Shown here: piece by piece, positions 3,596 to 9,862 of the stretch
How the letters are laid out: each line of letters begins with the position of its first letter
Position numbering within the stretch: the stretch's first letter is position 1
DNA from: Vampirovibrio chlorellavorus
Lineage (GTDB): Bacteria > Cyanobacteriota > Vampirovibrionia > Vampirovibrionales > Vampirovibrionaceae
DNA: 64,000 nucleotides
Reading direction: 5' to 3'
NCBI RefSeq assembly: GCF_003149375.1
Contig: NZ_QFWH01000004.1
Span: 1 to 64,000, forward strand
Translations under genes and position numbers: made by a program
The notes under the pieces: model-generated
Told to the model about the DNA's origin: nothing
Database searches by the model: none
The model's input: the letters and a program-made list of their open reading frames with translations, nothing else

Positions 3596-5362
3596 TTAAT
3601 CTTCCAGCGTGGAGGTATCCCCTTCCGGCAGGCCCAATTCCCGGGCTTTCAGCAAACGGCGCATGATTTTGCCGCTTCGGGTTTTGGGCAATCCTCCCAG
3701 AAACTCAATCTCTCGGGGGTAGGCGTGAGCGGCCAGACGGGTGCGCACGAAATTCTTGATTTCCCGCTCCAGTTGCGGGGAGGGTTCAAAGCCCTTCTTT
3801 AGGGAGATAAAGGCCTTTACAATCTCCAGACGTTCCGGGTCGGGCTTGCCGATGACCCCGGCCTCAGCCACTGCCGGATGCTCAATGAGGGCGCTTTCCA
3901 CTTCAAATGGCCCCACCAGATGCCCTGCGGTGTTGATGACATCATCGGCCCGGCCAATGAACCAGTAATAGCCGTCGGCATCCATGCGGGCCCGATCTCC
4001 GGTAATGTACCAGCCGTTTTTAAACTTGGACTGGTACATGTCCGCTTTGCCCCAGTAATTCTGGAAGATGGAGGGGGCTTGCGAGCGAATGGCCAAATGG
4101 CCCTCTTCGCCAGCGGGTAGGGGGGTGAATGCGTCATCCAGAATGCCCGCTTCCACCCCGGGGAAGGGCTTGCCCATGGAACCCGGTTTGACCGGCAGGC
4201 ACGGGTAGTTGCAGATGTGCATGGCCCCGGTTTCGGTTTGCCACCAGGTGTCGTGGAACACATGCCCGAACACTTTCTGGCCCCATACCACCGCTTCCGG
4301 GTTCAGGGGTTCGCCCACGCTGCACAAGTGCCGCAGCGATGAAAAATCGTACTGGGCGGCCACGTCTTCCCCGGCTTTCATCAGCATACGAATGGCCGTG
4401 GGGGCGGTGTACCATACGCTGACCTTATAATCCTGAATGAGTTGATACCAGGTTTCGGCGTTAAAGGGCCCTTCATACACCAGCAGGGTGGCCCCCAGGG
4501 CCCAGGGGCCAAACATCCCGTAGGAAGTACCCGTAACCCAGCCGGGATCGGCGGTACACCAGTAAATGTCTTTTTCCGGCTGCAAATCCAGAATGTACTT
4601 GGCCGTGGCCGCCTGAGCAATGACGGCGGCATGGCGATGCACGGCCCCCTTGGGCTTGCCGGTGGTGCCGGAGGTGTAGTGGATGATGGAATAATCATCC
4701 GGATCGGTGTAGGGCACCTCAAACGCTTCCGATGCGTTTTGCATGACGGTTTCATACCGCACTTCGTGACTTTTGAGCGGATGATGATACTCTCCGTCGC
4801 GATCCACCAGAATCACGTGCCGAATGGCGGGAAGCTCCGGCAGCACGCTGTCCAGACGCTCCTTGAGATCGGGGCTGGTGATGACCACCACCGCGCCGCT
4901 GTCCTCCAGGCGATCCTTAATGGCCTCCGGGCCAAAGGCGGAGAACAGAGGGCCGACCACGGCCCCCACTTTCAGGGCCCCGAACAGGGTAATAAAAATT
5001 TCCGGGATGCGCTCCAGATACACAAATACCCGATCACCTTTTTGCACCCCCAACGCTTTCAGGGCATTGGCGAACTGATTGGTTTTCCGCTTCAGTTGCT
5101 CAAATGTATAGGTTTCTTTATGGCCATTGGTGGCTTGCCACAGCAGGGCGGGGCGTTGCATCACTTCCGGCGGGTGCCCATCCAGGCAGATGGACGCTTT
5201 ATTCACCCCATTGGCCCGGGGCAGATTCAAGGTGTCCTTGGCAAAGGCTTCCCAACGAAAGCGCTCATACAGATGCTCGTAATTCTGCATATTCACTGTA
5301 CCGGGAACCACCGATTTCTGGATGGTGGGATAGTGGGATGTTGGCTCTGTGGACTGTGACAT
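3596..5362 (-). CDS. acsA: Acetyl-CoA synthetase (AMP-forming)
   Basis: 588 aa; converts acetate, ATP and CoA to acetyl-CoA, AMP and PPi in the cytoplasm. The adenylate-forming signatures are all present: the P-loop-like YTSGTTGKPKG near residue 229, HDTWWQTETG near 369, WFIGRADDVI near 464, and KTRSGKIMRR near 558-567. The last contains the lysine that protein acetylation switches off in this family. Length matches the Bacillus AcsA type (about 570 aa) rather than the 650-aa Acs type. A purine-rich AGAGGGGA precedes the ATG. It is convergent with the RDD gene, whose stop is only 21 bases away. The upstream gap contains a possible weak minus-strand promoter (TATAGA at 5443-5448). AcsA fits the acyl-CoA metabolism theme of the window. 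Confidence 0.93.
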   Translation of the reverse strand: MSQSTEPTSHYPTIQKSVVPGTVNMQNYEHLYERFRWEAFAKDTLNLPRANGVNKASICLDGHPPEVMQRPALLWQATNGHKETYTFEQLKRKTNQFANALKALGVQKGDRVFVYLERIPEIFITLFGALKVGAVVGPLFSAFGPEAIKDRLEDSGAVVVITSPDLKERLDSVLPELPAIRHVILVDRDGEYHHPLKSHEVRYETVMQNASEAFEVPYTDPDDYSIIHYTSGTTGKPKGAVHRHAAVIAQAATAKYILDLQPEKDIYWCTADPGWVTGTSYGMFGPWALGATLLVYEGPFNAETWYQLIQDYKVSVWYTAPTAIRMLMKAGEDVAAQYDFSSLRHLCSVGEPLNPEAVVWGQKVFGHVFHDTWWQTETGAMHICNYPCLPVKPGSMGKPFPGVEAGILDDAFTPLPAGEEGHLAIRSQAPSIFQNYWGKADMYQSKFKNGWYITGDRARMDADGYYWFIGRADDVINTAGHLVGPFEVESALIEHPAVAEAGVIGKPDPERLEIVKAFISLKKGFEPSPQLEREIKNFVRTRLAAHAYPREIEFLGGLPKTRSGKIMRRLLKARELGLPEGDTSTLED

Positions 5363-5778
5363 CTGCTTTCCCCTCTACTCATCAAATTCGCTACGGGTCC
5401 CTGAAGGTATGCCCGGCACGAGCGGAACACTTGCAGGCGGATTCTATACGACGATGATTGTTCCCTGATGCAACCCGGAGTTTCTTCATTTTAGACAATT
5501 TCGCTTGATTTGTTGAGTCTTGTCCACAAAAAACTTGATTTTCGATTGGGCTTTATCGATATTGATAGAGATGATTGGCGTCACGATCTGGCGAATAGTC
5601 TGGTACTCCAACAGATTGACGTGCGTTCATGGTGATTTTGGGTATTCCGGGTTTATCTCAGTGGGTTGTCCCGGTCGTGATTGAAAAAACGGTTATCCCC
5701 CCAACAACGGGATTCGGTGAACGGGTTATGGAAATTTGGGGTGAAAGCCCACTTTAGCGGCACAAGCAGGACTTCAGC
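5363..5778. other. Divergent intergenic region between acsA and the Clp-like gene
   Basis: 416 bp without a supportable gene. It is more AT-rich than its flanks. It holds a possible minus-strand -10 (TATAGA, 5443-5448) for acsA with only a poorly spaced -35, and isolated DnaA-box-like words (TTGTCCACA near 5519, TTATCCCCC near 5694). Two such words far from dnaA are not enough to call an origin. No tRNA or clear hairpin was seen. Confidence 0.4.
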
Positions 5779-8688
5779 ATGCAAGTGAATGATTGGTATG
5801 GTCAGCAGTTCCTAACCACAACACAGGGGCGGGTGGTCGCTTTTGCCGGACGGGCCAATAAGGGCAAAGCCCCGGTTGTTCAGCAGGTTGCTGGCTCCGA
5901 CAGTTTCCAGCGCAGTGCCTCGGCGATTGGCCCCCTGACGGTTAGGACAGAACCGCCGGATTCCCCGGACAGCTCAGTGGGGTCATCAGAGCTGAATGAC
6001 TTGAAGCCCTTTGCCGACGGGGTGTTGCCCGATGCGGACGCGCTGGTGGATCGGCTGGAGACGGTGTCACCGGTTTTGGCCAAATGGTTTCGTCCCCCGC
6101 ACTATAAACCGGGGGGAACGGTGGCGTTTCTCTCGCTGCCCGATGCCCTGATTAAAGGAATCGAGGCCTCCACGCGGGTCAGCACGCCCCGCAAAAAAGC
6201 CGGTCGTCCCCTGTCGGGAGCGGCCTCTCCCAAGCTGGAAGCGTTTTTGCCCGGAGCGGCCACGCTGGATTTTGATCGGGCCCCGGTCATGCAGGTTTTA
6301 CAGAAAGCCAGGCTGCAATTGCAGCAGTTGGTGGTGTTTGATAATCAGGACGATCCGGTGGCCGCTTCCCGGCTGAGTCGTCAGTTGCTTAGTCGGTTTT
6401 TGGACGAGCCCGGGCGTATCGATTTTTCTACGGCGGCCTTCCTGGAAAGTTTGTGTCAGCCGGAGTCAGCACCCGGTGCGGATGGGGCGACCCCACCTGC
6501 CCTGATACCCGAAATCCGTGCCGTGGTGGGTGACTTGCGGGCCGCTCTGGAAGGGCAGCGTCGTTTGGCCCTGGATCCGTTTGAAAAAGAGTGTCCCACC
6601 CTGTCCCGGTACAGCGATAATCTGATCCGTCGAGCCAAAGAGCGGCAATTACCGGATGTTCTGATGCGCGCGGAGACGGTCGAGCGCTTGTGGGCTCTGA
6701 TTAACGCCGGAGGGGCGCATAATGCCCACTTAATGCTGCAAGCCCCCAACGGTGAAGGCAAAACCTATACCCTGCTGGGTCTGGCCCAGCGGTTGGCCGG
6801 ACAAGAAACATCTTCGGCCGCTGAGGGGGTACACTTGTTGCAGTTGGATATACCGGCTTTACAGGCCGAGGGCTCCTGTAAGGGAGAACTGGCGGAAGAG
6901 GCCCTGTCGCAGTTGCAGCGTTATCTGCAGGGGCATCCCCGGCAAAAGGTGGTTTTGGTGATTGATGACGCGCAAGCCCTGATGCCTGTGGGGGACGGTG
7001 CCCAGAATCTGCCGTTGTTGTTGCGGCAATCGGGGCTGCTCCAGTGCCAGAATTTAACGGTGATAGGCGCCATGACCCCGGAGCATTGGGAACAAACCTC
7101 CCGATCGGAGGATCACAATTTCTGGAGGCAGTTTCAGCCCGTGGTATTGCCCCCCTTCCGGGATGCCCGGCAGTTGAGTCTGTTGGGTCAGAGTGCCCTG
7201 CCGCTAGAAAAACGCTATGGTGTGCGGATTCCGCCGGACATATTGGAAAAAGCCTTGCGTTTGTCCAGAACTGTCTGGCCGCAAGGTTCATTGGAGCGAG
7301 CCACAACGCTGTTACGGGGAGCGGTGGTTGATTTGACCCAGGGACCCGCCTTGCGTCTGGCCACCCTGAATGATGAATTGCAGGAACAGGCCTTGGCGGT
7401 GGCTACTCTGGAGCGACAGGAGCCCGGCGGGCTGGCGGATCGTTATCAAAGACAGTTGCAGGCGGCCCGGCAGCAGGTGGTCCGCCTTAAGCGGGAGATT
7501 GAATCCCGGCTGTGGCAAAAGGACAGCGCAGGCCCGACCCGGGGTGAGCCACCGATTTTGCAGGAGCAGCACCTGCAAAACGCACTGGCCACCATGACCG
7601 GGCGAGCAGCGGAGACCCTGACTCCGGCGGATTTAAAAAAGTTGCGCAATGCGGAAGCGGTCATGGCTCAGCATATCGTGGGGCAACCAGAGGCGTTGCG
7701 GTCGATTGCGCAGGGTTTACGGGAAATCGCCATTCGGCATAAAACGGGTGTGGTGGCCAATCGTCCCATCGTCAGTTTGTTGCTACCGGGCCCCACCGGA
7801 GTCGGCAAAACCGAGGCCGCCCGGGTCATTGCCCGGGAGTTTATGAACGGACATCTCATTCGTCTGGATATGTCGGATTACATGGAAAAACATGCCGCCA
7901 GCCTGCTGACGGGGGCTCCACCCGGATACGTGGGCTATGAGCAGGGTGGATTGGTGGATCAGGTGCGTCGCCATCCCAAATCGGTGGTGGTGTTTGATGA
8001 GATCGAAAAGGCTCACCCGGATGTCTTTAACCTGCTGCTTCAAATTCTGGGAGAGGGGGAGCTGAGAAATAACCGGGGCGAGGTGGTCAGCTTTCGGGAC
8101 ACCGTCGTCATCCTGACCAGTAATCTGAACCATGAGGCCCTGACTGAGCTGGTGACCCGGCATCGCCATGGTGCCACGGCCCGAAAAGATCCCGAATTGG
8201 CGGCCAATGAACTGGAGAAAAAGGTGCGCGCCCTTTTAACGGCCAATGGCGCTACAGGCGGTGCCGGTTTTAAGCCGGAGCATCTGGGCCGGATTGATTA
8301 TGTGATTCCGTTCAACCCTCTGACTGCTGAACATGTGCGGGGCATTGTTGATATTCAGCTGCAGCAGCTCAATGCGCAGTCCTTCCTGAAGGAACGCCAG
8401 CTGAAAGTGGCCTTGTCCCAGACGGCCTTGAATCGACTGGAAACTCTGGCACGGGGGCATGAGTTGGCTGACGTCAGCGGGGCACGGGAGGGGGGCTCGG
8501 TGATTGCTGGCGGGGCCCGGGCCATTGGGGCCCAGTTTGATCGTTATGTGGCCCAGCGGGTTTTATCCGAATTGGCCATGAACCCTGACTGGGACGAACT
8601 GGAAAATGCCTGCATTACCGTGGCGTACGATGCCCAGCGTCAGGGATTTTCCTTGCGAGTTTCGTCTGGACCCGCTTTCACAGGTTGA
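5779..8688 (+). CDS. Divergent Clp/ClpB-like double AAA+ ATPase
   Basis: 969 aa. The first about 300 residues match nothing I recognise and lack the double Clp_N repeat. The first AAA+ ring is eroded: its Walker A reads APNGEGKT (about 321-328; usual GxPGVGKT), the pore-loop region CKGELAEE has Cys in place of the usual Tyr, Walker B reads VIDDAQ (about 393-398; usual IDEIH), and the sensor strand reads IGAMT. A short coiled-coil linker (about 555-575) stands where ClpC/ClpE carry their M domain. The second ring looks fully functional: GPTGVGKT (about 671-678), pore loop GAPPGYVGY, Walker B VFDEIEKAH (about 739), sensor LTSN (about 777) and a C-terminal GAR motif. No ClpP-docking IGF/IGL loop was seen, so it is more likely an unfoldase or disaggregase than a protease partner. 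It stands alone, not in an operon. Confidence 0.8.
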   Translation: MQVNDWYGQQFLTTTQGRVVAFAGRANKGKAPVVQQVAGSDSFQRSASAIGPLTVRTEPPDSPDSSVGSSELNDLKPFADGVLPDADALVDRLETVSPVLAKWFRPPHYKPGGTVAFLSLPDALIKGIEASTRVSTPRKKAGRPLSGAASPKLEAFLPGAATLDFDRAPVMQVLQKARLQLQQLVVFDNQDDPVAASRLSRQLLSRFLDEPGRIDFSTAAFLESLCQPESAPGADGATPPALIPEIRAVVGDLRAALEGQRRLALDPFEKECPTLSRYSDNLIRRAKERQLPDVLMRAETVERLWALINAGGAHNAHLMLQAPNGEGKTYTLLGLAQRLAGQETSSAAEGVHLLQLDIPALQAEGSCKGELAEEALSQLQRYLQGHPRQKVVLVIDDAQALMPVGDGAQNLPLLLRQSGLLQCQNLTVIGAMTPEHWEQTSRSEDHNFWRQFQPVVLPPFRDARQLSLLGQSALPLEKRYGVRIPPDILEKALRLSRTVWPQGSLERATTLLRGAVVDLTQGPALRLATLNDELQEQALAVATLERQEPGGLADRYQRQLQAARQQVVRLKREIESRLWQKDSAGPTRGEPPILQEQHLQNALATMTGRAAETLTPADLKKLRNAEAVMAQHIVGQPEALRSIAQGLREIAIRHKTGVVANRPIVSLLLPGPTGVGKTEAARVIAREFMNGHLIRLDMSDYMEKHAASLLTGAPPGYVGYEQGGLVDQVRRHPKSVVVFDEIEKAHPDVFNLLLQILGEGELRNNRGEVVSFRDTVVILTSNLNHEALTELVTRHRHGATARKDPELAANELEKKVRALLTANGATGGAGFKPEHLGRIDYVIPFNPLTAEHVRGIVDIQLQQLNAQSFLKERQLKVALSQTALNRLETLARGHELADVSGAREGGSVIAGGARAIGAQFDRYVAQRVLSELAMNPDWDELENACITVAYDAQRQGFSLRVSSGPAFTG

Positions 8689-8818: not shown

Positions 8819-9862
8819 ATGAGCGCACCATCCATTCAATCTGAGCAATCCAGCCCGTCGGTTCCCCCGCAGCCGTTTATCCGGCTTGAGAAAGTGTCCA
8901 AGCATTTTCCCATCCACAAGGGGTTTTTCAACCGCAAGGTGGGTGAAGTGCAAGCGGTGACCGAGATTGATCTGGAGATTTACGCCGGGGAAACGCTGGG
9001 CGTGGTGGGAGAGTCCGGCTGTGGCAAGTCCACGCTGGGGCGCAGTATTTTGCAGTTACTCCGACCCAGTGGGGGCCGGGTACTTCTGGATGGGATCGAT
9101 CTGTGTACCCTCAGCAACCGGCAGTTGCAGCCTTTGCGCCGGGAAATGCAGATTGTCTTTCAGAACCCCTATTCCAGCCTGGATCCCCGCATGACCATTG
9201 GAGAAACCGTGGCTGAGCCCTTGCAGGTTCACCATCTTTACAAGGGGCCAGCCTTAACCCGGCGAGTGGCTGAGTTATTGGATATGGTGGGCTTGCCTCG
9301 GGATGCTTTCCGGCGGTATCCGCATGAATTTTCGGGCGGGCAGCGTCAGCGTGTGGGCATTGCCCGGGCCATTGCCCTGAATCCCCGCTTTATTGTGGCC
9401 GATGAGCCGGTCAGTGCCCTGGATGTCTCCGTGCAGGCCCAGATTTTGAATTTGATGGACGATCTGAAAAAAGAATTCAAACTGACTTACCTGTTCATTG
9501 CCCACAATCTCAGTGTGGTGGAGTATATCAGCGATCGGGTGGCGGTCATGTATCTGGGTAAAATCGTGGAAATCGCCCCGGCGGCTTCTCTGTATCATCA
9601 ACCCTTGCACCCGTATACCAAGGCGTTGTTATCGGCCATTCCGGTGCCTGACCCCACCGTGGATTTGAGCAAGCGGGTGTTGCTGCAAGGGGATTTGCCC
9701 AGTCCGTCCAATCCGCCTAGTGGTTGTCGCTTCCATACCCGTTGTCCCTATGTGGTGGACAAGTGCAAGACCGAAGTTCCCGCCGGGATTGAGTATTTAC
9801 CTGGGCATGTGGCTTACTGCCATCGGGTGCTGGAAATCAATGCGTTACCCCCATCTCTATAA
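8819..9862 (+). CDS. Oligopeptide/dipeptide-type ABC transporter ATP-binding protein
   Basis: 347 aa, of the OppF/DppF group. Motifs seen: Walker [10 protein letters not shown] (about 64-72), Q-loop [16 protein letters not shown] signature SGGQRQRVG (about 172-180), Walker B IVADEP (about 192-197), D-loop SALD, and the switch His in IAHNLSVV. The C-terminal extension contains CRFHTRCP (about 303-310) followed by a further Cys, the conserved tail of oligopeptide-transporter ATPases. Such proteins power import of peptides or nickel together with a second ATPase, two permeases and a binding protein. None of those is adjacent, so this copy is an orphan. It may pair with subunits encoded elsewhere. 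The start follows a -10 element directly. Confidence 0.88.

Follow-up and report, generated by a model that had tools for sequence, protein, structure and literature searches.

How the two rings of Clp machines share the work has so far been studied mostly with artificial mutants. In ClpB, hexamers are stabilised by nucleotide binding at NBD1 (PMC5540906). Exchange of either of two NBD1 arginines (R322A or R323A) lowers the ATPase activity about 1000-fold and keeps nucleotide binding, each arginine being essential on its own, and arginine loss also weakened nucleotide-induced oligomerisation (PMC4239642). A natural case is known from Pex1/Pex6, with an ATP-bound, catalytically dead D1 ring and a D2 ring that threads the substrate (PMC10518020). 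NBD1 of this complex is expected to bind nucleotide and not to hydrolyse it; human Pex1 NBD1 has the same Glu-to-Asp change as the protein described here, and the Pex1 NBD1 arginine fingers are missing in most model organisms (PMC5447069).

We analysed a gene in a stretch of 64,000 nucleotides (the window) from a Vampirovibrio-type genome, which would provide this predatory cyanobacterial relative with a lineage-private Clp-type unfolding machine. The initial annotation read its product as a Clp-family double AAA+ protein, and both the reading frame and its motifs were borne out (Table 1). The double-ring Clp is real, as the protein matched ClpB/ClpC-type HMMs with E-values down to 7e-87, far beyond chance, ring 2 matched Pfam AAA_2 at 1e-46, and full-length orthologues are present in four other genomes. 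Two Clp-type AAA+ modules lie in one chain, the second of the AAA_2 kind, which places it broadly among the double-ring Clp/Hsp100 proteins. A structure predicted for the monomer, not the hexamer (pTM 0.47), modelled both modules confidently, with folds matching ClpC/ClpB and closest to ClpC. Since ClpC and ClpB of the ordinary kind are both encoded elsewhere in the same genome, the window protein, about 30 % identical to either, is a third Clp and no stand-in.

Table 1. Features of the locus (window coordinates; aa, residues of the window protein).
Feature	Position	Strand	Basis or remark
Whole ORF, double-ring Clp/Hsp100 ATPase, 969 aa, ATG start	5779..8688	+	HMM/Pfam matches, predicted structure, orthologues
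N-terminal leader, aa 1-83, predicted disordered, AFAGR motif at aa 21-25	5779..6027	+	pLDDT < 35; motif in sequence
Helical N-region, aa 84-270, low confidence, Clp_N remnant or replacement	6028..6588	+	predicted structure; diverged Clp_N in L006/L007
Ring 1, AAA+ module 1, about aa 271-520	6589..7338	+	HMM/Pfam, alignment, predicted structure
Ring-1 Walker A, aa 322-329, APNGEGKT, conforms to the P-loop pattern	6742..6765	+	sequence, alignment
C367 at the ring-1 pore-loop Tyr position	6877..6879	+	alignment
Ring-1 Walker B D396-D397 (canonical DE), in VIDDAQ	6964..6969	+	sequence, alignment
Ring-1 trans-acting pair R450-Q451 (canonical RR), in W449-R450-Q451-F452-QPV	7126..7131	+	sequence, alignment
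Middle domain, short coiled coil of ClpC size (aa 504-583), without the long ClpB propeller	7288..7527	+	two long helices in model; alignment with own ClpB/ClpC
Ring 2, AAA+ module 2, about aa 601-890	7579..8448	+	Pfam AAA_2 1e-46, alignment, predicted structure
Ring-2 Walker A GPTGVGKT, aa 671-678	7789..7812	+	sequence, alignment
Ring-2 pore loop GYVGY, aa 716-720	7924..7938	+	sequence, alignment
Ring-2 Walker B D740-E741, in FDEIEKAH	7996..8001	+	sequence, alignment
Ring-2 Arg finger R838	8290..8292	+	alignment
Ring-2 sensor-2 Arg R914 (GAR)	8518..8520	+	alignment
Divergent acetyl-CoA-synthetase-like gene, upstream neighbour	3596-5362		kept within genus
Oligopeptide-type ABC ATPase gene, downstream after ~90-135 bp	8819-9862	co-directional	kept within genus

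Ring 2 had been called canonical from GPTGVGKT, GYVGY and FDEIEKAH. All three are present, as are a TSN at sensor 1, the Arg finger and the sensor-2 GAR. We scored the motif residues by alignment of 132 distinct double-ring Clp proteins, a non-random set of relatives fetched with the window protein, many of them from Spirochaetes and Vampirovibrionia. In ring 2, the Walker A Lys, the Walker B Asp and Glu, the sensor-1 Asn and the Arg finger were invariant (132/132), and the pore residue was Tyr or Phe. The catalytic Glu of ring 1 was absent in four of the 132: the window protein, its orthologue in Vampirovibrio chlorellavorus, and two paralogues of the class, L145 and L156.

Ring 1 had been described as eroded. 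This does not apply to its Walker A, because A-x4-G-K-T fits the P-loop pattern [AG]xxxxGK[ST] and the same Ala is found in all five members of the family (AxxxxGK[T/N]); with an intact P-loop, nucleotide binding by ring 1 is still to be expected. The P-loop Lys and Thr, the sensor-1 Thr and the first Walker B Asp are also kept. The replacement of DE by DDA in Walker B and of one of the two Arg before FQPV by Gln was confirmed. The pore Tyr is missing in the window protein but present in the 74 %-identical V. chlorellavorus protein (LYKGG), so even these sisters differ in it; the position is Cys in the window, Tyr in V. chlorellavorus, Phe in the orthologue L006, Gln in L008 and uncertain in L007.

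The orthologues form a natural series. L006, L007 and L008 still have DE and the second Arg, with Gly or Gln in place of the first; the window and V. chlorellavorus proteins have DD and Gln at the second Arg, the first position being Arg in the window and Gly in V. chlorellavorus, where both Arg are thus lost. As three members retain DE and the second Arg, and DD is common within the family only to the other two, the ring-1 changes are, judged from the aligned proteins, derived. The clade thus holds stages, the first Arg gone with DE kept, then the Glu and the second Arg lost, with ring 2 perfect throughout. The role of ring-1 hydrolysis becomes testable on natural proteins, as evolution has supplied the mutants.

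We compared the window and V. chlorellavorus genes by a counting method, which is rough here as dS exceeds 1. The dN/dS was 0.145 overall, 0.141 in the N-terminal part, 0.131 in ring 1 and 0.103 in ring 2. Protein identity is lower in the first ring (72.7 %) than in the second (84.5 %). In the ClpC (100 % and 98.3 %) and ClpB (97.1 % and 92.2 %) of these two species the order is reversed, ring 1 being the better conserved. On these values the gene is not in decay and no pseudogene, and ring 1 is relaxed yet not free to drift.

The purifying selection on ring 1, together with the retained P-loop, sensor-1 Thr, first Walker B Asp and one Arg, would also suit an ordinary two-motor Clp with tuned kinetics, in which Asp397 and Arg450 give a slow but real ring-1 ATPase. 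We consider this unlikely, if the most serious of the alternatives: the second Arg is gone, V. chlorellavorus lacks both, each is essential in ClpB NBD1 (PMC4239642), the window protein has lost its pore Tyr, and ring 1 is the less conserved ring.

The family is narrowly distributed. A profile of the five orthologues scored its members at 1229-1630 bits and ClpB/ClpC at no more than 385 bits. A search for homologues in the same clade, as proposed in the initial annotation, recovered it in five of the 382 genomes of the class, all within one family, namely four of five members of the genus (the fifth genome is 76 % complete) and one sister genus. Among named relatives V. chlorellavorus NCIMB 11383 is the closest; its orthologue is 73-74 % identical to the window protein. 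No well-known close homologue that combines this N-terminus with a known client was found. A scan of contigs for relatives in other phyla gave V. chlorellavorus and otherwise mainly Clp proteins from Spirochaetes (about 30-34 % identity), which lie on another branch of the tree and were discarded.

In the D2 tree the family is a clade of its own (100/98) on a long branch, outside both the ClpB clade (100/99) and the ClpC clade (98/97); the deeper branching has weak support (78/52), and L008 is on a long branch too. The window protein is neither ClpB nor ClpC, both of which its genome also has, and the tree sets it in a separate, fast-evolving clade. The long separate branch and the low identity to the genome's own ClpC and ClpB also speak against mixed hexamers, in which the Arg pair of those proteins would serve the defective ring-1 interfaces and the window protein would regulate their machines. 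The residues lost by the family do lie at the subunit interface, and both potential partners are encoded in the genome, but we regard such hexamers as improbable.

A hydrophobic-Gly-Phe/Leu tripeptide for ClpP binding was absent by inspection from D2 (region from sensor 1 to R838) in all five members, whereas the genome's own ClpC carries PFGF as its ClpP loop, so the machine is most likely ClpP-independent. An unfoldase that partners ClpP through a novel docking loop would agree with the ClpC-like nearest fold and middle-domain size, but given the missing tripeptide it is very improbable. That the gene is decaying and will be lost, as the ring-1 motif losses, the loss of the N-domain and the absence from most of the family could suggest, is hardly credible for a full-length frame without stops in five genomes, with dN/dS near 0.145 and a perfect ring 2.

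The situation was less simple for the N-terminus, where 300 residues had been thought to replace Clp_N. The suggested profile search was empty for the window protein: Pfam had no match in this region, and no Clp_N in any of the five members. L006 has nearly 200 extra residues ahead of ring 1. We built a Clp_N profile from 119 N-terminal regions. It matched L006 and L007 weakly (HMMER E-values of 0.002 and 8e-5, ten sequences searched), and hhalign gave P 2.7e-6, the best of 40 column shuffles reaching 0.046; the N-terminus of L008 had no significant match. The AlphaFold model of the L006 N-domain had a pLDDT of 51, and its Foldseek matches were individually non-significant (best E 0.5), more than half of the 50 shown being Clp N-type domains, which lends weak support only. 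For the window protein itself a Clp_N assignment was rejected, with no support from Pfam, HMM or hhalign. By eye, its predicted helices at aa 168-263 resemble one Clp_N repeat. Simple replacement is therefore not the case, as a diverged Clp_N is found at the same place in L006 and L007, but the window protein is mostly without it. From these matches, Clp_N was probably ancestral and has mostly disappeared from the lineage of the window and V. chlorellavorus proteins, whose private N-terminus would then be the remainder of Clp_N together with a disordered leader. The loss may have occurred more than once, as L008 likewise has no significant match.

The gene had been regarded as a lone gene, which is nearly right. 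The acetyl-CoA-synthetase-like and ABC ATPase genes adjoin it within the genus wherever contigs reach, but neither is conserved as a neighbour in the sister genus, and the ABC ATPase gene was accordingly dismissed as an operon partner. Promoter and terminator scans at the gene were near chance level. The PADLOC matches were to generic AAA, mostly in ring 2, and we discarded a reading as a defence system.

Taken together, we favour, with a probability of roughly 0.6, a Vampirovibrio-specific, ClpP-independent Clp/Hsp100 unfoldase or remodeller in which ring 1 binds ATP and serves as scaffold, ring 2 is the motor and the N-region picks the client. Ring 1 would hold a hexamer together and bind ATP with little or no hydrolysis. 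As in Pex1/Pex6, the threading of substrates, driven by ATP and without ClpP, would fall to ring 2, in which the Walker motifs, the Arg finger, sensor 2 and the aromatic pore loop are intact. The diverged helical N-region and disordered leader may choose the client. The idea of one structural and one working ring thus stands as the best reading, backed by the orthologue series, the ring conservation and the ClpB and Pex1 literature, with its P-loop and N-terminus parts revised. Against it, Asp397 is still acidic and one Arg is left, so slow ring-1 hydrolysis is possible. The oligomerisation defect of the ClpB Arg mutants would also sit badly with a scaffold role of ring 1, unless other contacts compensate. 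A role in predation is possible.

Other unusual Clp proteins were seen in the class. L145:1105-3693 (+) encodes 862 aa with an intact ring 2, a ring-1 Walker B of LQNAP and no Arg pair; it is in tandem with a ClpB at 4628-7324, and its N-terminus has FQG and RFG motifs and no Clp_N. L156:1027-3414 (+), from another family of the class, is ClpC-like, with ED for DE in its ring-1 Walker B (IED) and without the trans-acting Arg pair. Clp D2-like proteins with a single ring (458-556 aa) occur in the order at L141:2192-3829 (-), L144:778-2448 (+), L142:272-1648 (-) and L143:144-1640 (+). Next to those of L141 and L144 are coiled-coil-like proteins of 308 and 322 aa whose N-termini carry F.G/FG motifs of the same kind. 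The position of L145, L156 and L141-L144 at several places of the D2 tree suggests that ring 1 was lost more than once in the class, the long branches making this unsure. It is a doubtful conjecture that Vampirovibrionia repeatedly made single-motor Clp proteins by silencing ring 1 (the window family, L145, L156) or dropping it (L141/L144, L142/L143) and by swapping Clp_N for lineage-specific N-termini, which would give a set of specialised remodellers that act without ClpP and perhaps serve surface or predation structures.

A short motif of the form hydrophobic-x-F-small-G-basic or xFG recurs in the polar extensions at the N-termini of many proteins of the lineage that are otherwise unrelated, one of them PRPP synthetase-like. 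Carriers include the window protein (aa 21-25), L183:7568-8752 (-), L168:4505-5602 (-), L174:2528-3586 (-) and L163:12750-13601 (-). The motif was found in 21 of 434 N-terminal windows versus 31 of 1700 internal ones (p 6.5e-4, for a pattern picked post hoc). A lineage-specific tag is possible, but we did not accept the motif as a real signal tag, as the enrichment is weak and the pattern was picked after it had been seen.

Among known systems, the protein shares with ClpC two AAA+ rings, a short middle domain, the best fold match and, in the orthologues L006 and L007, a Clp_N remnant. It differs in its position outside the ClpC clade and in lacking the ring-1 Glu, the second Arg, the ClpP tripeptide and most of Clp_N, the double repeat at the ClpC N-terminus. 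With ClpB/Hsp104 it has in common two rings, the absence of a ClpP loop and the best NCBIfam match (7e-87), but it stays far below the equivalog cut-off (TIGR03346, 292.6 bits versus 1232) and lacks the long M-domain, the second half of which is a gap in all five members; it is outside the ClpB clade, and its genome has a true ClpB. It also scores below the cut-off for ClpV of type VI secretion (TIGR03345, 261 bits versus 885). L145 and L156 are likewise double-ring proteins with a lost ring-1 Walker B, but belong to other branches of the D2 tree, so that their losses are probably independent. In its working, the protein resembles Pex1/Pex6, where D1, its Walker B changed from E to D/N and its Arg fingers missing, is an ATP-binding scaffold and D2 the motor (PMC5447069, PMC10518020). 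The sequence pattern is alike, with D1 Walker A kept, Glu and Arg fingers lost and D2 complete; the window protein keeps one ring-1 Arg and V. chlorellavorus none. Pex1/Pex6 is a eukaryotic type II peroxisomal heterohexamer of another AAA+ clade and no family-level homologue; if our reading is true, the window protein would be a bacterial Clp counterpart to its dead-D1 design.
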